From an uncultured Bradyrhizobium sp. (GTDB lineage Bacteria; Pseudomonadota; Alphaproteobacteria; Rhizobiales; Xanthobacteraceae), in the NCBI RefSeq assembly GCF_947648125.1, contig NZ_CANSMR010000001.1, forward strand, positions 372,001-436,000: a stretch of 64,000 bases of DNA, in the 5' to 3' direction. The stretch's first letter is position 1; every line of letters begins with the position of its first letter. This document shows positions 35,851-52,156 of this stretch, one piece after another. The translations under genes and the position numbers were made by a program. The notes below the pieces were generated by a model that searched no databases, was not told where the DNA came from, and was given only the letters and a program-made list of their open reading frames with translations.

Positions 35851-36903
35851 ATGAGATCGTCAACACAAACACCGCGGAGCGGCGGAGGCGGCGAGCGCTT
35901 CAATCCGCGCACGACGCAGAAAGACATTGCGTTGGCGGCCGGCGTCTCGCAGGCTGCCGTGTCGCTGGTGCTCAACAAGTCTGAGACGCCGTCCGTCCCC
36001 GATGCGACGCGCGCGCGCATTCTCAAATTCGCCGGTGAAATGGGGTATCAGCCGCACCATCCCGCACGGATGCTGCGCCGCGCCCGCACGATGGCGCTCG
36101 CCTGCGTCGTGCCGGACATCACCAACCCGTTCTATCCGGGACTCGTGCGGGGCGTGCAATCGGTGGCGGCGCCTGCCGGTTACGACGTGCTGATGTTCGA
36201 TACCGATGGCCGTGAAGAAGGGGAGGCGCGCGCCGTCAGCTGGTTGTTGCAGGGCCGTGCGGATGGCGTCGTCGGCACGTTCTTTCACCTGCGTGTTCCG
36301 CAACTGTCGACGCTTGCCGGACAGAGTGTCCCGATCGTTCGCCTCGAGAGCCGGTACAAGGCGGCCGGCGATTTGCCGATCGACAGCGTCTACATCGACA
36401 ACGCGGAGGCATCGGCCGCCATGACGAGATATCTGATCGAGCGGGGACATCGGCGGATCGCCATGATCCTCGCCGAGGTCGGGCCGAGCCGGCAGCGGGC
36501 ACTCGGCTATGCCGCGGTGATGCGCGCAGCCGGTCTCGTGCCGGATGTGGTGACTGACAGCCGCTATTCGGAGGAGTCGGGCGCGCGCGCCATGAGCGAG
36601 ATCCTGGCGCGAGGCCGAGACCGACCCACTGCGGTGTTCTGTGCCAACGACATGCTGGCGATCGGTGCGATGGTCAGCGCGCGAAGCGCTGGTCTGTCGG
36701 TTCCGGACGATATCGCGATCGCCGGCTTCGACGATATTCCAGCCGCCAAGCTCCTGGGCTTGACGACGGTCCGGCAGCCCGAATTCGATCTCGGTGCGCT
36801 CGCGGCACGCACGCTGCTCGAGCGGTTGCAGCCGGGCGGCTTGAATTCCCGCGGCCAGAGCCGCGAGTTGAAGTTTGAAGTCATGACACGTTCGTCGGCT
36901 TGA
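35851..36903 (+). CDS. LacI-family transcriptional regulator
   Basis: The 350-residue protein has the LacI HTH and hinge helix (TTQKDIALAAGVSQAAVSLVLNKSE, then ILKFAGEMGYQPHHPAR) and a periplasmic-binding-protein-like ligand domain (DDIAIAGFDDIPAAKL). It should bind the operator overlapping its own 5' region and respond to a sugar or related ligand. AAAAGAG directly abuts ATG 35851, leaving almost no spacing, so translation may be weak. It is followed by the first ADP-ribosylglycohydrolase gene 24 nt downstream. Confidence 0.9.
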   Translation: MRSSTQTPRSGGGGERFNPRTTQKDIALAAGVSQAAVSLVLNKSETPSVPDATRARILKFAGEMGYQPHHPARMLRRARTMALACVVPDITNPFYPGLVRGVQSVAAPAGYDVLMFDTDGREEGEARAVSWLLQGRADGVVGTFFHLRVPQLSTLAGQSVPIVRLESRYKAAGDLPIDSVYIDNAEASAAMTRYLIERGHRRIAMILAEVGPSRQRALGYAAVMRAAGLVPDVVTDSRYSEESGARAMSEILARGRDRPTAVFCANDMLAIGAMVSARSAGLSVPDDIAIAGFDDIPAAKLLGLTTVRQPEFDLGALAARTLLERLQPGGLNSRGQSRELKFEVMTRSSA

Positions 36904-36927
36904 GGCTGCGGACGAAGGGAGTGCGAC

Positions 36928-39078
36928 GTGCCGACGATACCAGGTGGTTATGCCGAACGGGTCTACGCGGGCGTGCTCGGCAAGTTGATCGGCGTCTATC
37001 TCGGGCGCCCGTTCGAGGGCTGGACCTATGATCGGATCATGCAGGAGCTCGGTCCGATCAACTACTATGTCAACGAGCGCCGTGACGTTGCATTGCGGTC
37101 GCACCATCTCGTCGTCACCGACGACGACGTTTCGGGCACTTTCGCCTTTCCGCGGACGCTTGCCGACTGCGGCTTTCCCGAGCGGCTGACGTCGCAGCAG
37201 ATCGGGAACGGCTGGCTCAACTACATCGTCGAGGACCGTTCGGTCCTGTGGTGGGGCGGCATCGGCAATTCGACGGAACATACGGCGTATCTGAGGCTGA
37301 AGTCCGGAATACCGGCTCCGCGCAGCGGTTCGGTCGAGCTGAACGGCAAGACCGTCGCCGAGCAGATCGGCGGACAGATATTCATCGATGGCTGGGCGAT
37401 GGTGAGCCCCGGCAATCCCGAACAGGCGGCTTATCTCGCCGAGCAGGCGGCCCGCGTCAGCCACGATGGCGAGGCGGTGCATGCAGCCAGGCTGCTGGCC
37501 GCGATGGAGGCGCAGGCATTCGTCGAAGCGGACGTTCAGAAGCTGGTCGACATCGGCCTCGGATTCGTTCCCGCCGATTGCTTGATCCGGCGCGTGGTCG
37601 ATGACGTGCGCGCATGGCATGCGGGTGACAATGGCAACGACTGGGAACGCACGCGGGCGCTGATCGCCGGGCGCTATGGCTACGACAAGTTCAGTGGCAA
37701 TTGCCACGTCGTGCCCAATCACGCCCTTGTCATCCTCGCGACACTCTACGGCGCCGACAGCTTCCAGGACGCGATGCGCATCGCCAACACCGCCGGCTGG
37801 GACACCGATTGCAATGCCGGCAATGTCGGGTGCCTGTTCGGCATCAGGACGGGTCTTGCGGGCATCGACGCCGGACCCGACTTTCGTGCGCCGATCGCAG
37901 ACAGGATGTACATCTCGACGGCGGATGGCGGCGCTTCGATCACCGATGCCGTGATCGAGGCCAATGCGTTGATCGAGGCGGGCCACAGGCTGGTGGGATC
38001 GAACCCGCCCGCGCGGCCGAAGAACGGTGCGCGCTTCAACTTCGATTTCCCGGGTAGCCTGCAAGGATTTTGTGCGAAGTCAGGGGAGGCCGCCAGCCTG
38101 CATCCATTGCAGGTCGGCAACGTGGAGGGGCACAGCCAAGACGGGCATCGCTGCCTCGCCGTCGGCTTTCGACGTCTCGCGCGCGGACGGGTCGCGCGCG
38201 TGGCGACGCCAACGTTCTTCGACAAGGACGTCTTCACGATGCCGATCTACCAGCTGCTGGCCTGTCCGACGTTGCATTCCGGACAGCTTGTCGAAGCCAG
38301 GGTCGAGGCTGGTTCAAGCGTCAGAGACGTTTCCGTGCGTCTCTACGCCAGCGTCTATGACGAGCGCGATGAACTCGCCCCGATCTTCGGCGACCGGCTG
38401 CCATTGCAGCCAGGTCAGGATGCCGTCCTGACCTGGCGGATTCCCGATACCGGCGGATATCCGATCTTCGAGATCGGGCTCGAACTTGAAACCGAAGACC
38501 CGCTTGGCGCGGATGGCACGGTCTTCCTCGATTATCTGACCTGGTCCGGCGCGCCGGAGGCCAGGCTCTATCGGCCGGACGATAATCTGAGCACGATGTG
38601 GAAGCATGCCTGGGTGAACGGCGCGAGCCAGTTTCAGACCCGCTGGGAAGGATTGCGCGTCACCAATGGTGAAGGCATCGGTTTCGTCTCGCAGGGTTCG
38701 CGGGAGTGGCGTGACTACCGCGTCAGCTCAGTGATCACGCCGCTGCTCGCCAGGCGTTGGGGTCTCGCGGCCCGCCTGCAAGGGCGCGAGCGCTACTACG
38801 CGCTGATGTTCGACGCGGTCGACGGAGGCCGCGTCACGCTGCTCAGGCGCGACCACGAGGAGACGGTTCTCGCCAGCAACCGTTTCGCCTGGGACGTCGA
38901 CCGGCCATACGCCCTTGAGCTTCGGCTGCATGACGTGGAGATCCTGGCCTTCATCGACGGTCGTCAGGTGTTTTCGGTTCGCGACGAAGGCAGGCTGCCG
39001 CTGCTCGGTGGCGCGGTCGGACTTGTCGTCGATACCGGGTCGATCTCGACGAAGGCCGTCGATATTTCCCCGCTTTAA
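36928..39078 (+). CDS. ADP-ribosylglycohydrolase-family protein with C-terminal beta-sandwich
   Basis: At 716 residues this is about twice the family length. Residues ~1-370 are an ADP-ribosylglycohydrolase fold: VLGKLIGVYLGRPFEG, acidic cluster VTDDDVSGTF and the C-terminal metal motif NTAGWDTDCNAGNVG. Residues ~390-716 form one or two beta-sandwich modules of carbohydrate-binding or concanavalin type (GSREWRDYRVSSVITP, YYALMFDAVDGGRVTLLRR). No signal peptide is visible. GTG 36928 follows AAGGGAG. In a sugar-uptake operon it may cleave an imported N-glycoside (ADP-ribose-like or nucleoside) instead of de-modifying proteins. That role is inference. Confidence 0.82.
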   Translation: MPTIPGGYAERVYAGVLGKLIGVYLGRPFEGWTYDRIMQELGPINYYVNERRDVALRSHHLVVTDDDVSGTFAFPRTLADCGFPERLTSQQIGNGWLNYIVEDRSVLWWGGIGNSTEHTAYLRLKSGIPAPRSGSVELNGKTVAEQIGGQIFIDGWAMVSPGNPEQAAYLAEQAARVSHDGEAVHAARLLAAMEAQAFVEADVQKLVDIGLGFVPADCLIRRVVDDVRAWHAGDNGNDWERTRALIAGRYGYDKFSGNCHVVPNHALVILATLYGADSFQDAMRIANTAGWDTDCNAGNVGCLFGIRTGLAGIDAGPDFRAPIADRMYISTADGGASITDAVIEANALIEAGHRLVGSNPPARPKNGARFNFDFPGSLQGFCAKSGEAASLHPLQVGNVEGHSQDGHRCLAVGFRRLARGRVARVATPTFFDKDVFTMPIYQLLACPTLHSGQLVEARVEAGSSVRDVSVRLYASVYDERDELAPIFGDRLPLQPGQDAVLTWRIPDTGGYPIFEIGLELETEDPLGADGTVFLDYLTWSGAPEARLYRPDDNLSTMWKHAWVNGASQFQTRWEGLRVTNGEGIGFVSQGSREWRDYRVSSVITPLLARRWGLAARLQGRERYYALMFDAVDGGRVTLLRRDHEETVLASNRFAWDVDRPYALELRLHDVEILAFIDGRQVFSVRDEGRLPLLGGAVGLVVDTGSISTKAVDISPL

Positions 39079-39087
39079 GGAGCCGAC

Positions 39088-40104
39088 ATGCAAGCCAGCA
39101 CCTCCAGCCGGTTTGAGACCCACGTTCTGGCTTGCTTGACGTTCGGCGTGATCGGCGACGCCATGGGAACGCCGACCGAGAATCTCGAGCCGGCCGAGAT
39201 CGAGCGGCGCTTCGGCTGGGTGAATTCGTTCGAGGGTGACGGAACCGACGACACGATCATGCGCGACTTGATCGCATCCGCGCTCATCCGGACCGGCGGG
39301 TATGCCGACGCCGATCATTGGGCCGAGGAGTGGCGTGATCGGCACGATTTGATCTTCGGCAGCAAGGTCGGTCGTTTCTTCCCGTCCGTGCTGCATGCGG
39401 CCGCCAAGTTGCGCCACGGCTATGCGCCGCGCACGATTGCCGAGGGTACGATGCCGAGCTCGAGCGCCGCGATGGCGATCGCACCGGTTGGAATCGTCAA
39501 TGCCGGAAATCCGCGCGCGGCGGCGGCGCAGGCCATGGAGATCGCGAGCCTGCTCCACGTCACGGACCTCGCGTTCTGCCAGGATGGGGCGGCGGCAATC
39601 GCCGCCGCCGTGGCCGAGGCACTGATGCCGGAGTCGACGGTCGAGTCGGTCCTGAAAGCGTCGACGGCTCACCTGAAGCCCTGGAGTGGCAAGGAAATGC
39701 TGTCGCTGATCGCAGCCGCGCTCGAGCTTGCCGGCGAGGCGGCCGACTACAAGATGTTCCGCGAGCGCTATCACGCCAAATTCCGTCGGCAAATCGCCTG
39801 CGACAGCCGCGAAACGGTCCCCGCTGCACTGGCGATCGTCCGTCTTGCCGGGGGCGATCCCCGGTTGGCCGCCGCCCTCGGCGCCAATTTTGGCCGCGAT
39901 GCCGATACGGTTGCCTGCATGGCCGCCGGCATCTGCGGCGCATTAAGTGGCTTTTCACCTCTGAATGCGGAATTGATCGAGCGTTTGCCCAACGAAGCGC
40001 AGGGCGCTCTGGCCGAACTGGCCTCGCGACTGTCGGTCGTCACACGTGCCAAGATGGAACGCGAGCTGAGAGCTGTCGCTCGCTGCCCCGTAGACGCATC
40101 GTAA
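39088..40104 (+). CDS. ADP-ribosylglycohydrolase-family protein
   Basis: The 338-residue protein has the standard single-domain length. It shows FGVIGDAMGTPTENL, first metal motif GDGTDDTIM and second metal motif GRDADTVACMAAGICGAL. These bind the Mg ions used for N- or O-glycosidic cleavage of ADP-ribosyl groups. AAGGAGCCGAC precedes ATG 39088, nine bases after the upstream stop, so the two family members are co-transcribed under LacI. Confidence 0.86.
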   Translation: MQASTSSRFETHVLACLTFGVIGDAMGTPTENLEPAEIERRFGWVNSFEGDGTDDTIMRDLIASALIRTGGYADADHWAEEWRDRHDLIFGSKVGRFFPSVLHAAAKLRHGYAPRTIAEGTMPSSSAAMAIAPVGIVNAGNPRAAAAQAMEIASLLHVTDLAFCQDGAAAIAAAVAEALMPESTVESVLKASTAHLKPWSGKEMLSLIAAALELAGEAADYKMFRERYHAKFRRQIACDSRETVPAALAIVRLAGGDPRLAAALGANFGRDADTVACMAAGICGALSGFSPLNAELIERLPNEAQGALAELASRLSVVTRAKMERELRAVARCPVDAS

Positions 40105-41489: not shown

Positions 41490-41790
41490 CAGCACAGGTG
41501 GCTGGCTGCGGTGCCGCGCGGGCACTACGCCTACTTCGGCATCTCTGGCAATAGCACCTGCCTCCGTCGCTTCCGTCTTCAGGTAACGAAGGCGTGGCTG
41601 CGGGTCCTGCTACGACGAAGCCAACGGCCGAAGCGGTCGTGGGAGCGGTTCAACGCGATCCTGAAGGTCTTCCCGATACCGATTGGGCATGTACGCGACT
41701 GGCGTCACCAAATGGCCGAATCAAGTTACTCGTCAGCGGAGCCGGATGCGGGAAAGCTGCACGTCCGGATCTGTGAGGGGGGCGTCGAGC
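41490..41790 (+). mobile_element. Group II intron remnant (maturase C-terminus and domain V)
   Basis: The frame reads HRWLAAVPRGHYAYFGISGN, then RRSQRPKRSWERFNAILKVFPIP: this is the C-terminal DNA-binding end of a group II intron reverse transcriptase. Downstream, 41739-41772 folds like domain V (GAGCCGGATGC, GAAA loop, GCACGTCCGGATC), but the third pair of the catalytic AGC triad is a G-A mismatch. The reverse transcriptase core is missing. It is a 3'-end relic, not a mobile intron. Confidence 0.75.
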
Positions 41791-41940
41791 AATCGACGCC
41801 TCTACTCGACCCTGCGGCGGTGTGATCGGTCGCGGGCAGGGAGGAAAGGGCGGTCTTCTGTTCAGTCATTGGTGAGATGACACTATCTCTGATTGGATCG
41901 AATTGGACATCGGTAGCTGGAGCTAGCCCAAACTGGCCCA

Positions 41941-42140
41941 TGATGGATTGGAGCGAGAGTTCAAGGCCTTCAATCGGTTGGAAGATGGCGCGTGCACGAC
42001 GTGTGCACCGGCAGAGCCAAAAAAAATCTAGTAACGGCCAATGTAAGCGAGCCTTCTGAAGTGAGCGGATCCGTCTCCGGTTGGCGCACGTGCACGATCA
42101 AAATGTTCGAAGGCAGGGGAGCAAGGGCGAGTATCGCTTG
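41941..42140 (+). pseudogene. Frameshifted copy of the 51977 small gene
   Basis: PMMDWSESS and ARRVHRQSQK align with PMMDWTESS and ARRVRREVQE of the frame at 51977. A run of eight A's shifts the frame; removing one A restores NLVTANVSEPSEVSG, matching NLATANVNGLSEVIGG. The DNA match covers about 150 bp. The double glycine has become GS, so this copy is dead. Confidence 0.6.
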
Positions 42141-42275: not shown

Positions 42276-42485
42276 TCAGATCGGCTGCGGGTAGGGCTGA
42301 CCGATCCAAGGATTCCATGTGATGGTGCCCGGCGGATAGCCTCCAAGGGGCGGGCGCGTCGTGCAGCCGATGATAACGACCTCGCCGCCACGGCCGCCGC
42401 TCACCTGTTCCAGTCGCTCGAGCGAGAGGACCTCTGTTTCGAAATGATCGATAGACGTCTGGTTCCGAAGATTAATCGTGGTCAT
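42276..42485 (-). CDS. Double-glycine leader peptide precursor 1 (proline-rich core)
   Basis: The 69-residue peptide has leader MTTINLRNQTSIDHFETEVL-SLERLEQVSGG with the GG-leader consensus (L at -7, V at -4, GG at -2/-1). The 38-residue core begins RGGEVVIIGC and is rich in Pro, Gly and Trp, with one Cys. GGGAGGAATGCG precedes ATG 42485, confirming the start. The NHLP C39 transporter 4 kb away should cut after GG and export the core. No modification enzyme is present. A CRP-like site lies 85 nt upstream. Confidence 0.75.
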   Translation of the reverse strand: MTTINLRNQTSIDHFETEVLSLERLEQVSGGRGGEVVIIGCTTRPPLGGYPPGTITWNPWIGQPYPQPI

Positions 42486-42569
42486 CGCATTCCTCCCGGG
42501 CGTGGTTGGATCGAGTGCCGGGCGTCCCGTCACTTCGGAGCCAATATGCCTCATCGCAGGCGGGCATAC

Positions 42570-42585
42570 TGTGACATCCGTCACC
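42570..42585. promoter_or_regulatory. CRP/FNR-like site between peptide genes 1 and 2
   Basis: TGTGA-CATCCG-TCACC matches the TGTGA-N6-TCACA consensus at nine of ten positions. It lies between divergent precursors 1 and 2. Confidence 0.5.
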
Positions 42586-42729
42586 TACCTCTTGGCCTAG
42601 ATGTCGTAACGGAAATGGATCGCGGCTCTGCACACTCCTAAGGCCTGTGACCCGGCAACGTGACCTTGGCCACATCCGCGTGAGCGCAGAGCATCATACT
42701 GATGCAATTCGAAAGAAGAGGATCACGCC

Positions 42730-42903
42730 ATGAGCAACGGCAAAACCGACGTGGAAGAAACGATCAAGCGCACCGAAGAATTCTATGATGTCAAATCCGA
42801 GCTTAGCGAAGAAGAACTATCCAAGGTGTCGGGTGGCCGCGGCCACCTGTGGGTGGCGTGCGCGGTTGGGCAACACATCAAGGCAGCTAACATCACGTGT
42901 TGA
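42730..42903 (+). CDS. Double-glycine leader peptide precursor 2
   Basis: This 57-residue gene codes a charged leader ending DVKSELSEEELSKVSGG, again with L at -7, V at -4 and GG. The 21-residue core RGHLWVACAVGQHIKAANITC (quoted in two parts: RGHLWVACAV, GQHIKAANITC) has two cysteines, so a disulfide is possible. AGAGGATC precedes ATG 42730. It is divergent from precursor 1 and upstream of precursor 3. Short but convincing because leader, RBS and context agree. Confidence 0.72.
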   Translation: MSNGKTDVEETIKRTEEFYDVKSELSEEELSKVSGGRGHLWVACAVGQHIKAANITC

Positions 42904-42939
42904 TGGCGGGTTGACATCCGCTGGACGCGTATAGGTGAC

Positions 42940-42953
42940 GACTTTGCAAAGTC
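42940..42953. promoter_or_regulatory. Perfect 14-bp palindrome before precursor 3
   Basis: GACTTTGCAAAGTC is a perfect palindrome, extended by GTGAC and AC flanks (GTGAC at 42935, GTCAC at 42951). It ends 20 nt before ATG 42974 and could be an operator. Confidence 0.45.
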
Positions 42954-42973
42954 ACAGACAATCGGAGGCTGCC

Positions 42974-43150
42974 ATGAAAGACGCGTTTCAGGAGTTGAAC
43001 GCTGACGAACTCGATACGGTGTGCGGCGGAATGAAAACCGACCCGAACTACGTGAGCAAAGATGTCATCGACGCACGAGGTGGCTATTTCACGGTTTTGG
43101 GAATAACTTTCACCTTTGATGTAAACGGCAAGATCAGCAGCATCAGCTAG
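42974..43150 (+). CDS. Double-glycine leader peptide precursor 3
   Basis: The 58-residue peptide has the short leader MKDAFQELNADELDTVCGG, the same consensus with Cys at -3. The 39-residue core starts MKTDPNYVSK and ends in alternating hydrophobic residues (YFTVLGITFTFDV), suggesting a beta-rich peptide. GGAGG precedes ATG 42974, preferred over an ATG at 42935 that lacks an RBS. It runs convergently toward the second ABC transporter gene. Confidence 0.72.
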   Translation: MKDAFQELNADELDTVCGGMKTDPNYVSKDVIDARGGYFTVLGITFTFDVNGKISSIS

Positions 43151-43270
43151 CGCTTTGGCGATGCCGCCGGTCTCATGGGCGCTTAACTCGCTGGCCCATT
43201 GCTGCCCAAGGTCTTCGGCGCGCGGCACCTTCGTGCGCCGGATCAGATTGCCGTAACCGCGCGAGCCAGC

Positions 43271-46162
43271 CTATCCGACCATTTGCCGGCGCGCGAATTC
43301 TTCAAACGGTCCCGCTCCATTGATGAGCTCGCCATAGCTTCCGGATTGCACGATCTTGCCGCCCGACAACATCACGATGCGGTCGGCATGGCGGATGGTG
43401 CTGAGGCGGTGGGCAATGACAATTCGCGTTATGCTCAGCTGCCGCAACGAGGTGCCCACGATCGCCTGGGTCTGGTTGTCGAGTGCGCTGGTCGCCTCGT
43501 CGAACACGAGGATGCGCGGAGAACGCGCCAGTGCGCGGGCGATCAACACCCGCTGACGCTGTCCGCCGGAGAGCGTGTTGATCCCTTCAGCAACCAGCGT
43601 GTGCATGCCCATCGGCATCTGCCTGATATCGGCGTCGAGCGCCGCCAGCCTTGCAGCCTCCCATGCCTTGTCCAGCGTCAGTTCGACGCCGCCGCAGATG
43701 TTTTCGTAAATGCTGCCTGTTGCCAGCTTGGTGTCCTGCAGCACGACCCCGAGCTGGCGGCGCACGCCGTTGACCTCGATCGTGTTCAGCGCCTTGCCGT
43801 CATAGAAGATGGTCCCGGCTTCCGGCCGCTCGAAGCCAAGCAGTAGGCGCAACAGCGACGATTTTCCGCTGCTCGACGGACCGACAATCGCCACGTATTC
43901 CCCTCTCGGAATGCGTAGGGTGATGTCCTCGAGAATCTTCGGTCCGCCCTCGATATAGCGGAAGGTGACGCCGGAAAACTCGATCTCGCCCGACAGATCT
44001 CCCGGCGCCCGTCGATCTTCCGCTATCTCGGCCGCGGTGAAGAGAATCGGCTTCATGCGGGTGAGGTGTGGAATCGCCACGAGCGATTCACTCATGCTCG
44101 AGGCCCAGTTGCCGACGGCCGCCGCGGTCTGCCCGAATGCGGCGAGGAAGCCAAGAAAGGCGCCGAGATTGGTCAGGAGCTGACTGTTGGTACGCGAGGC
44201 GATCGCGAAAATGCTCAACGTCGCCAGCATCGGGAAGGCCGTCTCGAACACCGTCAGAACGTTGGCTGCCCGTTGCGAGGCGATGAAGTAGCGCTTCTGC
44301 GTCGCAAACTGTTCCGACCATCGGGCCAGCGCGCGCGCCGCGGCGTTCGCCACGCGAAGCTTGCTGACGCCCGCGATCAGTTGCAGGACGAACCCGCTGA
44401 CCTTGCCCTGCTGGTTGAAGTGCTTGCTCTCGTAGTAGATCCGCACGGCGCTGGTTGCGACGATCGCCGCTGCCCTTAGCACGATCATCAGGAGCGCGAT
44501 GCTGCCGAGCCTGAGGTCATAGTAGAACATGAGCCCAATGCTGAAGAGGCCGAACAGAGCAGACGTGAAGCCCCGCAAGGTACGTCCGGTGAAGATCTGG
44601 CGCGCCGCCTCGATGCCCATCGAGCGGTTGACCAGATCGCCTGTCGTGTGGTCGCGAAACAGGGAAGCGGGCAGCCTTAGCAAGCGATCGATGAGGGCAG
44701 CCTGGAGCTTGTAGTCGAGCAGGCCTTCGAGCCTGAGCGTGACCATTCCCTGCATCCCCTGCAGGCTTGCCATGGCTATCGCGGTGACGGAGAGCGCCGC
44801 CGCGCAAACGACGAGCTGGTCGATCTCGGTGCGAGGGATCACCGAATTGACCAGCAGGTTGGTCACGAGCGGCGGTATCAGCGACAGCAGTCCGATGGCG
44901 ATGATCGCAAGCCCCATGCGGACGATGCTGCCGGCCAGGCTTCCCGTTGCGAATGACAACAGATCACGATAGCGAAGCGGGTGTGCCGGCAGGGCCTTGT
45001 AGAAGCTAACGGCCTCCGGAGCCAAATCGTTTGCGACCGAGCGGCTGACCGAGTGTCGCCGTCCTTGCTTCGAATCGACCATCATGTACCGGCCGCGCCG
45101 GTCGCGGATCAGGGCGACCGGGTCGCTTTCCGGCCCATGCCACCCCAACAGGGGGCCGGCGTCGGATTTCCACCAGCGATCGCGCAGCTGCACTCGGCGA
45201 ATTCGCAATCGGGATGCACGCGCGACCTCCAGAATGTCGCCGAAGCTCTGGCCTGCGGGTCGGGTTCGGCTGGAGTGTGCAATCGAGCTTCCCAGAGCCT
45301 CTGCGACGATCCGGCAACTGGAGAGCAGGGGATCGGCGGCATCCGGTTCGAATTGGGTACGATCGGCTGGCCTGGAGACGACCTCGGACAGGCGCTCGAA
45401 GGCATCGAGCGTCCGCGCGTGGGTCAATTCGGTTCGCCTGGCGAGCCGCTGCCGTTCGAGCGTCAGATTGCGTCCAAGCGACCGTTCCAGACTGGCGACA
45501 ACAACCGCGTGAAAAAGGTCGATCGCGGGCCAGACCAGCGGCGCTTCGAGCGCGGCCGCCTCCGCCACGATCCTGCAGCCGCGTGCTCCCGCGTCGAGCC
45601 AGAACCCCGCCGTGAGCGGGATGGGAAGATCTCCGGCTTCGAGTTCGAGGTCGAGGTTCAGCGGTTTTACGCTGCCAGCTTCGATGCGGGCCCAGACGAT
45701 GCTCCGCCGTGGGCCGCAACTACGCGCGCCCGGCTGCAGGTCTCTCGCCTCGCCGCCGATCAATTCGGGACTGTTGTCTGATCGGGTCGAGCCGGCCGCG
45801 AGCATGCACAGCTGCGTAATCCAGCCGGACATGCGGTCGGAAGAAGCGATCTCGCTTCGCGAAACCGCGATGATCTCGGCGTCGGGCCCGCCGACTGCGA
45901 CGATCTGCAGCCGGCTCGCCGATCTTTCGCAGGCGGCATGCAGATCCAGGATGATTTCACCCACCTCACATCGAAACAGATGATGGCGGACGCCCCCGGT
46001 CTCGACGGCGAAGATATCGACGTGACCGGCACTCACCTCCAGCACCTGATCGCGTTCGTCGAGGAGAATGGGATGGCGTGGATCGATCGCCACGCGGCGA
46101 GAGCCGGGGGCCGCAATTGGCCTTACGGTCGCAAACTCATCCTTGGCGAGAGGGTCACTCAT
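43271..46162 (-). CDS. NHLP-family peptide export ABC transporter (permease/ATPase, second subunit)
   Basis: The 963-residue protein has a long N-terminal region (~400 residues) starting with a cyclic-nucleotide-binding-like fold (LLDERDQVLEVSAGHVDIF), then six membrane helices (from RMGLAIIAIGLLSLIPPLV) and an ATPase with Walker A GPSSSGKSS, signature LSGGQRQR and Walker B ILVFDEATSALD. There is no C39 peptidase. This is the layout of the NHLM/NHLP ABC2 protein. Its ATG overlaps the stop of the peptidase-ABC gene by 4 nt. It probably forms a heteromeric exporter for the GG peptides around it. Confidence 0.9.
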   Translation of the reverse strand: MSDPLAKDEFATVRPIAAPGSRRVAIDPRHPILLDERDQVLEVSAGHVDIFAVETGGVRHHLFRCEVGEIILDLHAACERSASRLQIVAVGGPDAEIIAVSRSEIASSDRMSGWITQLCMLAAGSTRSDNSPELIGGEARDLQPGARSCGPRRSIVWARIEAGSVKPLNLDLELEAGDLPIPLTAGFWLDAGARGCRIVAEAAALEAPLVWPAIDLFHAVVVASLERSLGRNLTLERQRLARRTELTHARTLDAFERLSEVVSRPADRTQFEPDAADPLLSSCRIVAEALGSSIAHSSRTRPAGQSFGDILEVARASRLRIRRVQLRDRWWKSDAGPLLGWHGPESDPVALIRDRRGRYMMVDSKQGRRHSVSRSVANDLAPEAVSFYKALPAHPLRYRDLLSFATGSLAGSIVRMGLAIIAIGLLSLIPPLVTNLLVNSVIPRTEIDQLVVCAAALSVTAIAMASLQGMQGMVTLRLEGLLDYKLQAALIDRLLRLPASLFRDHTTGDLVNRSMGIEAARQIFTGRTLRGFTSALFGLFSIGLMFYYDLRLGSIALLMIVLRAAAIVATSAVRIYYESKHFNQQGKVSGFVLQLIAGVSKLRVANAAARALARWSEQFATQKRYFIASQRAANVLTVFETAFPMLATLSIFAIASRTNSQLLTNLGAFLGFLAAFGQTAAAVGNWASSMSESLVAIPHLTRMKPILFTAAEIAEDRRAPGDLSGEIEFSGVTFRYIEGGPKILEDITLRIPRGEYVAIVGPSSSGKSSLLRLLLGFERPEAGTIFYDGKALNTIEVNGVRRQLGVVLQDTKLATGSIYENICGGVELTLDKAWEAARLAALDADIRQMPMGMHTLVAEGINTLSGGQRQRVLIARALARSPRILVFDEATSALDNQTQAIVGTSLRQLSITRIVIAHRLSTIRHADRIVMLSGGKIVQSGSYGELINGAGPFEEFARRQMVG

Positions 46163-48315
46163 TCGCTTGCCACGAGCCTTGCATAAGCGCCCTGGAGTGC
46201 GACGAGTTGTTCATGGGTGCCGCGTTCCACGATCCGGCCACGCTCCAGCACGATGATTTCGTCGCAGTCGCGCACCGTGCTCAGCCGGTGCGCGATGATG
46301 ATGCAGGTGCAGCCCCGGCGCCGCAAATTGTCGTCGATGGCCTTTTCCGTGATCGGATCGAGGGCGGCGGTTGCCTCATCCAGCACGAGAATGGATGGAT
46401 TGCAGACCAGCGCTCGGGCGATCTCGATACGCTGGCGTTGACCGCCGCTGAAATTGCTGCCGCCCTCATTGACGTGGCAGTCGTAGTTTCCGGGGCGCGC
46501 GGCAAGATCATGATGGATCAGCGCATCCCTGGCGGCGGCGATCAGATCGCGCTCGTCGACCGTCGAATCCCAAAGGGTCAGATTGTCTCGCGCGCTTCCC
46601 TCGAACAGAAAGATGTCCTGGTCGACATAAGAGACGGAATTTGCGAACTCTTCGGGCGGGAGGTCCGCCAGTTTCCATCGTTCGAAGAGAATTTCCCCCG
46701 ACCACGGCTCGTACAGTCCGCAGATCAGCTTGCCGAGCGTCGACTTGCCGCTGCCGGAGACGCCGACAAGCGCCACGCGAGATCCCGCAGGTATCACGAG
46801 CGACAGATCGGCCAGCAGCGGCGGCTCGAGGACCGAATAGCCGAAGTTGACGTTGCAAAGCTCGACCCTGCCGGCGAGTTTTGGCGGAAAATCATTGGCC
46901 GAGTCGCGCAGTGACGCGGGGCGGAGGGGGTATTTGTAGATATCCTCGAGCCGTTCGAGCGCTCCCTTGATGGTCTGCAGGCCGCCGAAATAGTTGACGA
47001 GATTGGCGAAGGGTTCGGAGAAGTTCGCCGCCAGGGACTGGAACGCAACCAGGCTGCCGAGCGTCAGCGAGCCCTGGATGACCCTCAAGCCACCGAGGCC
47101 GAGGATCGCGGCGACCATCAGGCCCGAGAGCAGCGTCGGCACCATGTCCAGGATGATGGCCGACACGCCAAGCTTCTGCTCGGCATTCAAATTGTTGGCC
47201 TGAAGGCCTGCCCATTTGCCGAAGGCATCGTCCTCCAGGCCGCTCGCCTTGATGGTCTCGATGGTGCGCACCATGCCCACGGTGGCGCCCAGGAGCTTGC
47301 CTTGTTCGACCGCGAGCCGGTAGCTGAGGTCTTGCCGCGGTGCTGCAACCAGGCGCAGCAGGAGCACGTTGAGGAGGGAGATCGCGGCGCACAGCAGCGT
47401 GAGGCTGACATCGTAGACCGCCATCGCGGCACCGAACAGCAGCACCGACGTCAGGCTGAGCGCGTTCATCGTGACGCCGCCGGACAAAAGCCGGGCCACC
47501 TGCTCGTTGGACGCGACGCGGCTCGCAACATCGCCGGCATGGCGCTGGGTGAAGAATTCCAGCGGCAGCGCCATCAGACGCCAAAGGAAACGGCTGGTCA
47601 TGACGACGGAGAGCTTGGCCTGCAGCCGCAGCAGGACCGACTGACGAACCGCGACCAGCATGGCGCGACAGGCCGCCGTCAATGCCATTCCGATCAGGAG
47701 CGGCATGAGCCAGCCATTGTTGTGCTGGATCAGGATGTCGTCGACAAATATCTTGGAAAAGCCGGCGGCAAGGATATTGGGCACGACGAGCGCGATGCTT
47801 ACGATCACCAGCAGGGCAACCCCCACCCGAGAGTAACGCAACTCACGCAGCAGCAGGCCGATCCCGTTCGGCTTGCTGCCGACCTTTTTGAACTCTTCGC
47901 CGCACTCGAAGGCCAACACGACCCCGGTGAAGGCGAGATCGAGTTCGGCCATGCTGATGCGCCTGCGGCCGGTCGCGGGATCGTTGATGTAGGCATGCTC
48001 GCCCTTGATGCCCTCCAGGACCACAAAGTGATTGAAGTTCCAGTGGATGATGCAGGGCTTCGGAATCTGGGCCAGCGCCGGGGGCTCGACGCTATAACCC
48101 CTTGCGACAAGGCCATAGCGGCGCGCTGCCCTGACGATATTGCTAGCCTTGCTGCCGTCCCGCGACACGCCGCAGGCGATGCGAAGCTGCTCCAGGGAAA
48201 TCCAGGCGCCGTGATAGGCGAGGATGATCGCGAGCGCCGCAGCGCCGCATTCGACCGCCTCCATCTGCAGGATGATGGGCGTCCGCTTTACCTTCTTGCG
48301 CAACAGTTCTGGCAT
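46159..48315 (-). CDS. NHLP-family peptide export ABC transporter with C39 peptidase
   Basis: The 718-residue protein has a C39 leader peptidase (Cys in QMEAVECGAAALAIIL, His in NHFVVLEG, Asp in INDPATGRR), six membrane helices, and an ATPase with Walker A GVSGSGKST, signature FSGGQRQR and Walker B ILVLDEATAALD. All catalytic residues are present. C39 domains cut after GG of double-glycine leaders during export. ATG 48315 is chosen because AGGGAAG precedes it; an ATG at 48372 would overlap the upstream HlyD gene. It is the core of the export locus. Confidence 0.93.
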   Translation of the reverse strand: MPELLRKKVKRTPIILQMEAVECGAAALAIILAYHGAWISLEQLRIACGVSRDGSKASNIVRAARRYGLVARGYSVEPPALAQIPKPCIIHWNFNHFVVLEGIKGEHAYINDPATGRRRISMAELDLAFTGVVLAFECGEEFKKVGSKPNGIGLLLRELRYSRVGVALLVIVSIALVVPNILAAGFSKIFVDDILIQHNNGWLMPLLIGMALTAACRAMLVAVRQSVLLRLQAKLSVVMTSRFLWRLMALPLEFFTQRHAGDVASRVASNEQVARLLSGGVTMNALSLTSVLLFGAAMAVYDVSLTLLCAAISLLNVLLLRLVAAPRQDLSYRLAVEQGKLLGATVGMVRTIETIKASGLEDDAFGKWAGLQANNLNAEQKLGVSAIILDMVPTLLSGLMVAAILGLGGLRVIQGSLTLGSLVAFQSLAANFSEPFANLVNYFGGLQTIKGALERLEDIYKYPLRPASLRDSANDFPPKLAGRVELCNVNFGYSVLEPPLLADLSLVIPAGSRVALVGVSGSGKSTLGKLICGLYEPWSGEILFERWKLADLPPEEFANSVSYVDQDIFLFEGSARDNLTLWDSTVDERDLIAAARDALIHHDLAARPGNYDCHVNEGGSNFSGGQRQRIEIARALVCNPSILVLDEATAALDPITEKAIDDNLRRRGCTCIIIAHRLSTVRDCDEIIVLERGRIVERGTHEQLVALQGAYARLVASE

Positions 48316-48361
48316 GCGGCTTCCCTGCTGCGGGCTTTCCCGGGCCGAGTGAGGAGAGGGC

Positions 48362-49672
48362 CTACCCATCAATTCCCGTGAGATGCCTGATCAAGGGGAT
48401 CACCAGATCGAGCGGTCGTTGCCGCCGAGTCGTGATTTCCGCGCGCGCCAGGGTCCCGCTCGTCAAATGAGCGTCCGGGCCCTTGCCCACGGCCCAGCGA
48501 TAGCCCGTCGCAGTGGAAGCATCCTCTTGAAGCGCCACCTCGGCGGCATACGGCGCGCCATTGTGGGAGAAGCGGGACACCAGGCTTTCATTGTGCAGCA
48601 CCGCGCTGATGCCTTGAGGCGTCATCGGGAAGTCGGAGACGTTCAAGACAGTACCCAGCATCATGCCGAACTCTTCGCGCTTGATGGTGCTCGGCTCGAG
48701 ATGAACCTGCATTCCCGGCTTGATCTGCTTGCCATGTTCGGCCGGGATGTAGACGACGGCCTGGAGCTTCTTGCCTTCGCTTTCGATCTGGACCACCGGC
48801 ATCCCGACGGAGAGCACGGAGCCGGGGGAGATCTTCACCTCGAGGACGCGCCCTTCAATCGGACTAAGCACCTGAGTGTTCTGGCTCAATTGCTCCGCGA
48901 CCGCATGCATCTGCCGTCGCGCTTCGTTCAGGGTGAATTCGGACTGCTGGATCTCGCGCTCGCGCTGCGTCTCGAGATCCGTCTTTTGCGACCTGAGCTT
49001 CAGGATCTCGTTCTGCGCGTCGATGCGGCGTTGCTGCGCATCGGTCAATTCCTGTCGCCGCTCCTCCAGATTGCGCCGCGTCGTGTAGCCCTTCGCGAGC
49101 AAACCTTCGAGGTTCTTGACGTCGACCGAAAGATAATCGACGCGCTGGCCCGTCGCCTTGATGACCTGTTCAAGTGCGGCTTCCAGCTTCTCGAAGTTCT
49201 GGCTCTTGGCGGCGAGTTCGCTCGCTACCTTCGATTTGAGGTCGGCGTATTCGTGCTGGCGCTCTTGGAGCACTTCGACCGCCGACTTGTGCTTCTGTTC
49301 GATGTCGGTCTGAACGATCTGGGCGATCGGCTGACCCAGCTCGACGTGGTCGCCGACCGTGACGGCAACGGATTGGAGCCGGCCGGCAGCAGCGGATACC
49401 GCGTCGACCACGTTGCCGCCATTGCTGATCAGGATTCCCTCGCCGGAGACGCGGGAGGGCACGCGTCCGAAAATGCCCCACACCAACGCGGCCGCCACCG
49501 CAACGAGGATCACCAGCGTGATAATCCAGTCGGCGGGCCTGGTGACGACGACAAGATGATCAAGCTGCTCGGGAGAGGCCGCACGGTCGAGTGCCGCGGC
49601 GCGAAATGCCCGTTGCGGCTCGGGGGTCGCCCTCCTATTCTCCGGTTGTCCGAGCGTGTCCGAGGCCGACAT
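48362..49672 (-). CDS. HlyD-type membrane fusion protein of the NHLP exporter
   Basis: The 436-residue adaptor has one N-terminal membrane anchor (ADWIITLVILVAVAAALVWGIFG), a barrel/lipoyl part (SRVSGEGILISNGGNVVDAVSAAAG), a long coiled coil (about residues 135-260) and a second lipoyl half (LSPIEGRVLEVKISPGSV). It bridges the inner-membrane transporters to an outer-membrane channel, which is not encoded here. The start is taken at ATG 49672 (MSASDTLG); ATG 49720 would add 16 residues; neither has a strong RBS. The 5' region faces the divergent gene at 49779. Confidence 0.86.
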   Translation of the reverse strand: MSASDTLGQPENRRATPEPQRAFRAAALDRAASPEQLDHLVVVTRPADWIITLVILVAVAAALVWGIFGRVPSRVSGEGILISNGGNVVDAVSAAAGRLQSVAVTVGDHVELGQPIAQIVQTDIEQKHKSAVEVLQERQHEYADLKSKVASELAAKSQNFEKLEAALEQVIKATGQRVDYLSVDVKNLEGLLAKGYTTRRNLEERRQELTDAQQRRIDAQNEILKLRSQKTDLETQREREIQQSEFTLNEARRQMHAVAEQLSQNTQVLSPIEGRVLEVKISPGSVLSVGMPVVQIESEGKKLQAVVYIPAEHGKQIKPGMQVHLEPSTIKREEFGMMLGTVLNVSDFPMTPQGISAVLHNESLVSRFSHNGAPYAAEVALQEDASTATGYRWAVGKGPDAHLTSGTLARAEITTRRQRPLDLVIPLIRHLTGIDG

Positions 49673-49778
49673 ATCTGCACGCAAAGCGTTCAACTGATTG
49701 AATGAATATGCCGGGATCATCGCATAGAACGGACGTGGTAACAACAAACGCCCGCGCGGAACCGGCGTCAGGGCTTGA

Positions 49779-50306
49779 ATGCGCATGGTGATCGGCAACG
49801 CAAAGCGGCTGTTTGCAGCGCACGCACGGCATGTGATGCTTGCGGCGAGCCTTGCGGTGGGCCTGCTATGGTCCTCCGTTTCACGGGCCGGCGTCCTGTC
49901 CGAGAGCGACCTCAAGCAGGCGGAGGGCCTGAGGCCGCTGTTTGCGAGGCTGATGAACGATCTCGTCGAAGCCATAAAGCGCCCGGATGTACCGAGCGGA
50001 GACGCTGGCTGCATCAACTCGACGATCCGTGAGCTCCTGCAGATCTCCGACGAACTCGCCAGCTACGAATACCTGATCACGATGGAGAAGGACCTGACTG
50101 ACGTCGGCGACGACAACCCGTTGCGAGGCGTCGTCAAGTTTGCGGTTGAGAAAACCAGCGTCATTCTCATCGGCGAGAGGAAGCGGCTGGTCCAATTGTC
50201 CGAGCAGTGTGCCAGATATCCGGTGGGGCTTGAAAAGGCACAGGAGGCGTTGAAGGTCATCGATACGACGACCGGAATCCTTAGTTCCATTCGCGAACGT
50301 CTGTGA
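49779..50306 (+). CDS. Predicted secreted protein of unknown function
   Basis: I do not recognise this 175-residue protein. It has a signal peptide (basic start, then HVMLAASLAVGLLWSSVSRAG, likely cut after SRA) and a mainly helical mature part with two cysteines (DAGCINSTI and LSEQCARYP) that could form a disulfide. It is transcribed divergently from the HlyD gene. Its place in the export locus suggests a periplasmic accessory or immunity role, which is only a guess. The start ATG 49779 has a weak AGGG upstream; ATG 49785 is possible. Confidence 0.65.
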   Translation: MRMVIGNAKRLFAAHARHVMLAASLAVGLLWSSVSRAGVLSESDLKQAEGLRPLFARLMNDLVEAIKRPDVPSGDAGCINSTIRELLQISDELASYEYLITMEKDLTDVGDDNPLRGVVKFAVEKTSVILIGERKRLVQLSEQCARYPVGLEKAQEALKVIDTTTGILSSIRERL

Positions 50307-50434
50307 AGATGCGTGCCGAGGCCGATCGCGCGATTGAAGGAGTAGCTCGGCCTCGTGCATCATTCTTCCTGATCCGGAAAGAAAAGAGGTCGCCAATGGA
50401 GCGGCCTCTATTGGAGAGTCGACATGGCCGGCGA

Positions 50435-50635
50435 TCAGAAGATGTGACCCAGTGCTCCGAGCACGCTTCCGAGCGCGTCGACAATCGGCTCGACGATCGG
50501 CCTGACAATTCGGACGAGGCCGCCGCCGCCATGGCCGGTACCGGTGCCCGTGCCGGAGCCGTCTCCGCTCTTGCCCCCGACGACATTATCGAGGGTTTCG
50601 ATCGAGATTTCGCGAATTTCAAACTCCAGGTTCAT
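50435..50635 (-). CDS. Double-glycine leader peptide precursor 4 (Gly-rich plus amphipathic core)
   Basis: The 66-residue peptide has leader MNLEFEIREISIETLDNVVGG (L at -7, V at -4, GG). The 45-residue core starts with a Gly/Ser/Thr stretch (KSGDGSGTGTGTGHGGGG) and ends with a hydrophobic amphipathic segment, LVRIVRPIVEPIVDALGSVL then GALGHIF, reminiscent of membrane-active bacteriocins. CAGGAGACAGCC precedes ATG 50635. The CRP-like site at 50720 is 85 nt upstream, the same spacing as for precursor 1. Confidence 0.75.
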   Translation of the reverse strand: MNLEFEIREISIETLDNVVGGKSGDGSGTGTGTGHGGGGLVRIVRPIVEPIVDALGSVLGALGHIF

Positions 50636-50719
50636 GGCTGTCTCCTGATGTAGGTGTTCGGGAAGGACGGTCCCCTCTCGATCCGTGGGCAGCACGATAG
50701 TCATTTGGCTCAGATCGAC

Positions 50720-50735
50720 CGTGATGCGCGTCACA
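50720..50735. promoter_or_regulatory. CRP/FNR-like site between precursor 4 and the cNMP-binding gene
   Basis: CGTGA-TGCGCG-TCACA matches TGTGA-N6-TCACA at nine of ten positions. It lies between divergent genes starting at 50635 and 50815. Confidence 0.55.
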
Positions 50736-50814
50736 AGGTTCGACTGCGAGCGTACGCACGTCCCGTAGAGCCTGGTCCGCTTGCCGCCGCTGGGCGCGGG
50801 AGTATATTTGGCCG

Positions 50815-51294
50815 ATGGCTGTCAGCTCGCCCGATCTGAAAGCGTTCTTGCTCTCCACACCTTTCTTCGGTGGCCTCGGAGACGCGAGCCTCGATCTCCT
50901 GATCTCAATGCTGGTCGAGCGCCGCTTCGACGTCGGCGCCACCATCGTAACGGAAGGAGAACCGGGGCGCTCAATGTTCGTTGTTCATTCCGGCGAGCTC
51001 CTGGTGGGCAAACTCGGGGATTCGGGGCGCGTCATTCGGATGGCGGATCTCGGACCTGGTGATTTTTTCGGCGAAATGACGCTCATCGAAATGCAGAACC
51101 GATCAGCGTCCGTCGTCGCGCAGAGCTCGGCCGTATTGTACGAGCTCACGGCCCGAAGCCTCTATACGTACTACAGGGCCGACATCCACGCCTATGTGAT
51201 CGTGATGCAGAACATCAATCGCGAGCTTTGTCGGCGGCTCCGTCGCGCCGACAGCCGCATTGCCGAACTGCTGATGCGCCACGCAAGTGGATGA
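50815..51294 (+). CDS. Stand-alone cyclic-nucleotide-binding protein
   Basis: The 159-residue protein is a single cNMP-binding barrel: MLVERRFDVGATIVTEGEPGRSMFVVHSGEL, then the phosphate-binding cassette PGDFFGEMTLIEMQNRSASV with Glu and Arg in the expected places. It stops after the helix that follows the barrel and has no CRP-type HTH, so it cannot bind DNA like CRP. It may gate the NHLP transporter, which has a similar N-terminal fold, or act with another regulator. It is divergent from precursor 4 with a CRP-like site between. Confidence 0.82.
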   Translation: MAVSSPDLKAFLLSTPFFGGLGDASLDLLISMLVERRFDVGATIVTEGEPGRSMFVVHSGELLVGKLGDSGRVIRMADLGPGDFFGEMTLIEMQNRSASVVAQSSAVLYELTARSLYTYYRADIHAYVIVMQNINRELCRRLRRADSRIAELLMRHASG

Positions 51295-51666
51295 CGCGGA
51301 CTCATGTGAGTCGTGTGGGCTGAGAAGAGACTGCGACCAGCGCCTACAGCGTTGATCGTACGACTGCGGCGTTCCCCGGCCGCAGTTCGGCGAAGGAAAT
51401 CGCGTCGCCGGTTCGACGAACGGTAAGCGCACCACGCAGGACGGTCTTGCGAATTGTGATCGGCATCACGGAGCGCCTCGGCGCCTCGAGCTACTGATGT
51501 CGTGTCGCTGAAGAGACCGGAGGTCGGGAACAAATCCAAGCCAATAGCGCAGTGTGATGAATGACCTTCGCCGCATGGCCCCGACGCCCGGCGCTTTCCG
51601 CGGCACAAGTACGACAGTGGAACTGTAAACCGGCCGACGAGGCCACCTCACAAACGGAGAGAGATC
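51295..51666. other. Intergenic region before precursor 5
   Basis: No convincing gene is seen. GACTCA-TG-TGAGTC at 51299-51312 is an inverted repeat just after the cNMP gene stop. No CRP-like site was found here. Confidence 0.4.
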
Positions 51667-51864
51667 ATGAGCAACTGCCTCAAGCGAGTTCTTCTGGACG
51701 ACGAGTTGGACGCCGTCAGCGGTGGCCAGCTCACCGAAGTGCACTTTCAGCCGGACTACAAGGAGCCGACCGTCCTTTTGGATGACGGCATGAATATACG
51801 GACCACTGGCATTGGTCACAGCAATGTCGCCTATGACTCTCCCTTCACCCCCATTCCGGCGTGA
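51667..51864 (+). CDS. Double-glycine leader peptide precursor 5
   Basis: The 65-residue peptide has leader MSNCLKRVLLDDELDAVSGG, close to the consensus. The 45-residue core starts QLTEVHFQPDYKEP and is acidic and polar, with a terminal FTPIPA; it has no cysteine. CGGAGAGAGATC precedes ATG 51667. The core does not resemble those of precursors 1-4; only the leader is shared. Confidence 0.72.
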   Translation: MSNCLKRVLLDDELDAVSGGQLTEVHFQPDYKEPTVLLDDGMNIRTTGIGHSNVAYDSPFTPIPA

Positions 51865-51976
51865 GCACGCGGCGGGATGGCGTTTTGTCCGAAGCGTCAT
51901 CCCGCTCGAACCGGCGGCTCAGATATTCATACGGCCTCCTTGGAGCTCATTTGGCAGAGTTAGCTCAAACTTGCCC

Positions 51977-52156
51977 ATGATGGATTGGACAGAGAGTTCA
52001 AGTTTTCCGAGTGGTCAGAAGGCGGCGTGTGCACGACGTGTGCGCCGGGAGGTCCAGGAGAATCTCGCTACGGCCAACGTGAATGGGCTTTCCGAGGTGA
52101 TCGGGGGCGCTGATACGGTGTCGTTGCTGCCGGACGAGCTAGCGTGGACGCGCTGA
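51977..52156 (+). CDS. Possible GG-leader peptide 6 (uncertain)
   Basis: The 59-residue frame starts MMDWTESSSFPSG and reaches NLATANVNGLSEVIGG, which fits the GG-leader spacing (L at -7, V at -4), followed by a 15-residue tail ADTVSLLPDELAWTR. A related, broken copy lies at 41941, which suggests the unit was once a real gene family. Against it: no RBS before ATG 51977, an unusually long arginine-rich leader, and 18 nt of overlap with the convergent extradiol gene. Confidence 0.4.
   Translation: MMDWTESSSFPSGQKAACARRVRREVQENLATANVNGLSEVIGGADTVSLLPDELAWTR

Follow-up and report, generated by a model that had tools for sequence, protein, structure and literature searches.

The window analyzed here is a stretch of 64,000 nucleotides from an uncultured Bradyrhizobium sp. 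(contig NZ_CANSMR010000001.1, positions 372,001 to 436,000), and between its positions 42276 and 51864 it carries an NHLM-type peptide export cassette surrounded by five short genes, A to E, that encode peptides with double-glycine (GG) leaders. An original prediction, made from the letters of the sequence, had recognized this arrangement. Following it up by profile searches and by comparison with related loci, we find beyond it an operator shared by peptide genes, a constant secreted-looking partner of the exporter, and peptide genes that lie away from the exporter.

RESULTS

Exporter and peptide genes

The three exporter genes are adjacent on the minus strand (43271-49684) and form a complete NHLM-type cassette, each exceeding the NCBI cutoff of its family. 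They encode NHLM ABC2, an ATP-binding cassette (ABC) permease/ATPase without a peptidase (43271..46162; TIGR03797, 843 bits; cutoff, 709), NHLM ABC1, the C39-peptidase ABC exporter (46159..48372; TIGR03796, 1014 bits; cutoff, 853), and a HlyD-type adaptor (48362..49684; TIGR03794, 309 bits; cutoff, 156). The peptidase domain (PF03412, Peptidase_C39; 121 bits) is present in one ABC protein only, the product of 46159-48372, and not in that of 43271-46162. In the 8.57-Mb genome, 46159-48372 is also the only place at which the TIGR03796 cutoff is exceeded.

Gene A (42276..42485, minus strand) specifies a Pro-rich core with one Cys, gene B (42730..42903, plus strand) a short core with two Cys, gene C (42974..43150, plus strand) a core of the DVIDARGG type, gene D (50435..50635, minus strand) a Gly-rich stretch followed by a hydrophobic tail, and gene E (51667..51864, plus strand) an acidic core. 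Start, ribosome-binding site, leader, and stop are intact in all five, with an AGGAG-like sequence ahead of the ATG, and each leader follows the double-glycine pattern of L at -12, L at -7, and V at -4 before GG (D has I at -12, which the pattern permits). The listed open reading frames (ORFs) for A and D begin too early; the likely ATG codons are at 42485 and 50635, respectively. The leaders are alike and the cores are mutually unrelated. When A to E were searched against Pfam and NCBIfam, the leader of B was the sole match above cutoff (TIGR01847, 17.4 bits; cutoff, 15.7), with no core above any family cutoff, and the NHLP and Nif11 leader models (TIGR03793 and TIGR03798) did not match any of the five at an E value of 0.1. 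The original prediction had named a C39-peptidase ABC transporter, a second NHLP ABC transporter, and HlyD, together with five short GG-leader genes having ribosome-binding sites, this leader spacing, and cores of differing character, all of which is borne out.

The second ABC protein was found at 1e-180 in 55 of 295 genomes, its own included, and 53 of the 57 other exporter matches were compared with the window, G137, G100, G230, and G200 being left out (G, L, and C numbers are our handles for genomes, loci, and contigs). In the resulting 54 loci (the window and 53 from relatives), GG-leader ORFs are concentrated near the exporters, with 58 in 104 kb at up to 1 kb distance versus 3 in 60 kb at 8 to 12 kb. 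A 16-residue leader model, built from 39 leaders of other genomes with A to E excluded, was used to scan the whole genome in six frames and ranked A to E in the first five places (C first, D second, E third, and A fourth), with E values of 0.001 to 0.067. The runner-up was a sixth candidate on contig C17 (E value, 0.11), and the remainder scored from 1.7 up. This test is not wholly independent, since some of the 39 training leaders come from homologues of B and C. Leader positions outside the search pattern are conserved as well: among 70 type I leaders (defined below; A to E included), Glu occupies -13 in 76% and -8 in 71%, and -6 is Asp or Glu in 79%.

Every core has homologues elsewhere, and leaders are conserved in relatives. 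Homologues of A (62 to 76%) were found in 5 other genomes out of 195 (12 weak matches were disregarded), and homologues of E in 2 others of the same 195 (G132 and G141). Those of B are at L042 and L107, those of C in 5 genomes (L052, L053, L062, L066, and L118; 7 loci, two pairs of which are one genome fetched twice), and those of D in many loci. Rough ratios of nonsynonymous to synonymous substitution (dN/dS) were 0.13 for E (over 32 residues only), 0.28 to 0.49 for C, 0.45 to 0.51 for B, and 0.78 for D, the last from a comparison that extends a few codons beyond the partner's stop; A was left out. On the combined tests of leader density, leader model, and core conservation, A to E are real genes.

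Distribution of the system and its constant partner

The exporters divide into type I, at L039-L074 and in the window, which is accompanied by a gene that we call c175, and type II (L075-L091, 17 loci), which is not. A stricter filter retained 132 peptides in 48 core families, with 26 singletons. By this count, type I loci hold a mean of 2.6 peptides, with at least one in 33 of 37 and at least two unrelated core families in 19 of 37. An exporter with several peptides is thus no rarity, and the set differs by strain. The leader pattern is blind to Ala at -4, so that the number of peptides at a locus may be higher than counted, and the looser ORF lists contain some false ORFs. Peptide genes may also lie far from the exporter, as for the A homologue of G085, which contig arithmetic places at least about 225 kb away. 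Four homologues of A (L161, L162, L164, and L165) are on contigs without an exporter, and a gene starting MARNILILGASYGSLL is nearby in L161, L162, and L164 but was not seen in L165. The candidate on C17 (G000:C17:133268-133468; L166) contains several Cys, adjoins a recombinase-like ORF by eye, and has no relative in the 195 genomes. In L041, L044, and L046, near-identical N/Q/G-rich peptides are arranged in tandem and a His-rich peptide (HHGHHHGHH...) is present, all repeat-like in look; the two peptides of this type that were tried had no match to curlin in Pfam.

The c175 gene (49779..50306, plus strand) encodes a protein of 175 amino acids with two invariant Cys residues and an N terminus that by eye resembles a signal peptide. 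It matched nothing in Pfam or NCBIfam and belongs to no known family, and a PDB profile search yielded at best an unrelated receptor (E value, 0.12), which we rejected as a structural relative. Its profile detected 46 loci in the species-genome collection, mostly in named Bradyrhizobium and otherwise in metagenome-assembled genomes, including one Rhodoplanes. In all 46 the gene is divergent to that for HlyD, at 84 to 449 bp in 45 and at 1.5 kb in one. Among the fetched loci it is present in 35 of 36 of type I and 0 of 17 of type II; in the lone type I locus without it, L062, the contig is cut inside the exporter. Because c175 is constant while the peptides change, it is more likely to be a part of the exporter or a general protector than to confer immunity to one peptide.

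Beyond c175 lies a gene for a stand-alone cyclic-nucleotide-binding domain protein of 159 amino acids (50815..51294, plus strand; PF00027, 72 bits). Relatives of it occur in 17 of the 46 c175 loci, a loose association, and its length leaves no room for a CRP DNA-binding domain, so that it is probably not the regulator of the system.

A CRP-type palindrome upstream of the peptide genes

Of 56 regions ahead of type I peptide genes, 12 contain the word GTCACAG, versus a maximum of 7 in 50 shuffles; the word resolves to the palindrome YGTGAY-N4-RTCACR. Exact half-sites 4 bp apart agree at 10 or more of 12 positions in 25 of the 56 regions versus 2.3% of 1500 random segments, and other spacings reach this score in 0 to 3 regions. 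With Y/R allowed, the figures become 40 of 56 and 137 of 3000, and at 65 to 85 bp before the start they are 27 of 56 and 14 of 3000. A half-site spacing of 2 was enriched at 9 of 12 positions (21 of 56; control, 4.3%) but was rejected, and since only 1 of 56 reaches 10, we attribute this signal to overlap with the TG that belongs to the true half-site. RpoN-type sites were not in excess (25 seen, 28.6 expected).

The palindrome precedes 65 of 97 type I peptides versus 1 of 35 type II peptides, and at least one is present in 30 of the 33 peptide-bearing type I loci. When one random member per core family is drawn, about 22 of 29 have it (15.5 at 60 to 90 bp). In the type II loci L076-L085, which represent a second kind of exporter within Bradyrhizobium, long leaders are joined to very short cores, such as those of the SWPF or LWPY type (as many as 12 are listed for L079), with almost no operator.

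Downstream of the palindrome a -10-like element recurs at a fixed spacing: 28 of 40 sites have Y-A at offset 37, versus 13 sites at the next best offset and a mean of 3.6, which puts the center of the palindrome about 41 bp ahead of the inferred transcription start. At class II CRP promoters the site is centered at -41.5. It overlaps the -35 region at such promoters, as described in a source that also reports a CRP orthologue in Bradyrhizobium that groups with Actinobacteria (PMC5449483). The sites found here conform to this class II layout, in which a TGTGA-N6-TCACA-like site sits about 41 bp upstream of the start and a -10 element is present, for starts that are deduced and not mapped.

In the whole window, sites of 11/12 are found at three places only. 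The first, TGTGACATCCGTCACC (42570..42585), is 84 bp before A and 144 bp before B and has CATATT at the -10 position for A; the second (50720..50735; scored on the plus strand) is 84 bp before D, with TATCGT near the -10 position; and the third, TGTGATCGGCATCACG (51455..51470), has TACTGA at the -10 offset and precedes E by 196 bp, an atypical distance that makes its assignment to E weaker. A weaker site of 10/12, CGTGACCTTGGCCACA (42659..42674, plus strand), precedes B by 55 bp, and its CATACT misses the usual -10 offset by one base. A looser pattern gives 10 palindromes in the window versus 2.2 expected, 4 of which are those before A, B, D, and E. Among seven held-out peptide genes the palindrome is present in six, at 10/12 in each: in the A homologues of G012, G085, G310, and G090 (78 to 86 bp; G012 and G085 are nearly identical), in the E homologue of G141 (79 bp), and in the C17 candidate (68 bp, assuming its GTG start).

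Modifying enzymes and flanking elements

The original prediction that modifying enzymes are lacking in the window holds for the kinds tested. LanC-like genes had no match in this genome, the one YcaO match is on contig C2 outside the window, and none of the 23 radical-SAM matches in the genome is within the window. LanC-like genes were further surveyed in 45 of the 48 known exporter-bearing Bradyrhizobium genomes (G100, G101, and G137 were left out) and found in 10, in 6 on the exporter contig and in 4 on other contigs; in the six same-contig cases the nearest is about 446 kb from an exporter.

On either side of the cluster lies a dispersed repeat (41920-42068 and 51930-52110), found at five places in the genome (C1 twice, C28, C31, and C4) and with copies beside the exporters in L061, L065, L094, and L096. 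A sixth peptide in the window (51977-52156, ending LSEVIGG) was considered and rejected; it lies within this repeat (5 genome copies), and copies elsewhere have in-frame stops. Just upstream of the cluster, 41737-41810 matches group II intron domain V (47 bits; gathering threshold, 40), and the short ORF ahead of it (41511-41825) has no Pfam match. Farther upstream, 35851-40104 holds a gene for a LacI-type regulator and, after it, two genes of the ADP-ribosylglycohydrolase family in tandem.

DISCUSSION

We consider it likely that the locus encodes a type I (NHLM-type) peptide secretion system whose substrates, double-glycine peptides left unmodified, form a regulon of their own. According to this model, the peptide genes would be turned on together by a CRP-family activator bound to YGTGAY-N4-RTCACR, some 41 bp upstream of the transcription start. 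The peptides would be synthesized with like leaders and cleaved after GG by the C39 domain of the 46159-48372 protein, and the ABC pair, together with HlyD and a TolC-like channel encoded elsewhere, would export the unrelated cores. The secreted partner c175 would assist in the periplasm. The exporter, the peptide genes and their conserved leaders, the operator with its -10-like element, and the constancy of c175 are seen in the sequence itself; cleavage, export, activation, the lack of modification, and the role of c175 are what the model predicts.

Several observations weigh against this model. Expression, cleavage, and export of the peptides are predicted from the sequence, and activation by a CRP-family protein is likewise surmised, the regulator being putative. 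In the window, gene C is without an operator of its own, starting 70 bp after B, the palindrome of E is distant and that of B weak, and the six remaining palindromes lie at other places, four of them inside ORFs of a rough map. The exporter itself is mostly without the palindrome, which reaches at least 10/12 in 2 of 36 gaps between the HlyD and c175 genes. Elsewhere, the A homologue of G132 was the one held-out gene without it, and among 19 further peptides from named loci, some of which are related to those used to derive the motif, 10 have it and 9 do not, 7 of the 9 being one family. Homologues of A may also occur without this exporter, as in G090, a genome that is 87% complete. Finally, when ORFs that recur among the type I loci were screened coarsely, none was recognized as a clear immunity gene; several hydrophobic ORFs, present in 4 to 5 loci, are candidates.

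With somewhat less confidence than for the locus itself, we favor a Bradyrhizobium-wide regulon in which one CRP-family activator would control a shifting set of unmodified peptides (29 core families over the 33 type I loci that have peptides), some of them encoded at a distance from the exporter; all would share one dedicated exporter and an undescribed periplasmic partner. The likeliest purpose of such a system would be competition with related soil bacteria. This is suggested by the turnover of the cores and by class II bacteriocin matches, weak and below cutoff, in some of the relatives' peptides when ten of these were searched against Pfam.

Since the coarse screen recognized no immunity gene, roles in a matrix or in signaling retain some probability. 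It is possible, if on the whole rather unlikely, that the same machinery exports matrix or surface components that function in adhesion, biofilm formation, or root attachment. That the coarse screen recognized no immunity gene would fit this, and there is a precedent in EbfG1-4 of Synechococcus, GG proteins that share one C39 exporter and are needed for biofilm (PMC4997328), three of which are described as amyloid prone (PMC9981879). The tandem N/Q/G-rich peptides of some relatives would fit such a role. However, the cores of A to E resemble neither these peptides nor each other, and the Pfam search with the ten relatives' peptides matched neither curlin nor any other amyloid family.

A signaling role of the peptides, with other cells or the host plant as recipients, appears considerably more doubtful. 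The coordinated promoter would suit signaling, and the tight constraint on E (the rough dN/dS over its 32 residues) and on the core of A may suggest a fixed receptor, but the cores differ from strain to strain, and a receptor or response regulator recurring beside the exporters was not seen in the coarse screen. It is slightly more improbable still that only some of A to E are working and that the others are decaying remnants: the region is flanked by the dispersed repeat, with the intron domain upstream, and D is the least constrained by dN/dS, but all five genes are intact and have homologues, and the palindrome is present upstream of A, B, D, and E. That an enzyme from another part of the genome modifies the peptides in trans, for which the YcaO and radical-SAM matches of this genome and the LanC-like genes of other exporter genomes might be invoked, is improbable to a similar degree, given that there is no LanC-like gene here and no YcaO or radical-SAM match in the window and that the cores have by eye no common modifiable motif.

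The secretion system that we prefer over these alternatives is related to several known ones. The definition of the exporter is due to Haft et al. (2010), who linked it to NHLP and Nif11 precursors in a text that does not contain the word Bradyrhizobium (PMC2887384). The window shares with that cassette, as described there, the families TIGR03794, TIGR03796, and TIGR03797 and the peptides alongside, but has short GG leaders, no tailoring enzyme that we could see, and in addition the CRP-type operator and c175. In a 2011 survey of cyanobacterial bacteriocin clusters with C39 exporters, four of the seven groups had clusters with about three to four diverse precursors (PMC3140520). Such clusters, like ours, combine a C39 exporter with several diverse GG precursors but belong to another phylum, and the operator and c175 are not mentioned in the available part of that survey. 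In S. elongatus, several small GG proteins, EbfG1-4, share the one C39 exporter PteB (PMC4997328), but there the set forms an operon (PMC9981879), whereas here unrelated cores are distributed over several transcription units. With class II microcins and class IIb bacteriocins the system has the GG leader, C39 exporter, and adaptor in common, as reflected in the TIGR01847 score of the B leader. It differs from them in its two ABC proteins, in the immunity gene that the coarse screen did not recognize, and in that no core exceeds a family cutoff.

The architecture is therefore already known, and the suggestion in the original prediction that a cocktail of peptides from one exporter would be a new kind of thing is not supported, being preceded by the cyanobacterial clusters and by EbfG1-4/PteB. 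What stands of it is the reading of one exporter serving at least five unrelated GG peptides, with no modifying enzyme in the window among the kinds that were looked for. For the CRP-type regulon, for peptide genes distant from the exporter, and for c175, we found no description among the papers listed by searches of the open-licence literature, which is weak evidence of absence; the available part of PMC13174018 makes no mention of Bradyrhizobium.

Native strains often outcompete the inoculants applied to legumes, and bacteriocin activity has been reported for Bradyrhizobium, with genes still to be assigned (PMC4520892). B. japonicum FN1 produces inhibition zones and has several putative bacteriocin genes that were neither assigned nor described in detail (PMC4520892), so that any identity with the present system would be conjectural. 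The system described here would offer a testable set of genes comprising the peptides, their exporter, a secreted partner, and a shared switch. Furthermore, the operator may serve as a means of finding peptide genes far from the exporter, and has one such candidate in this genome, on contig C17.

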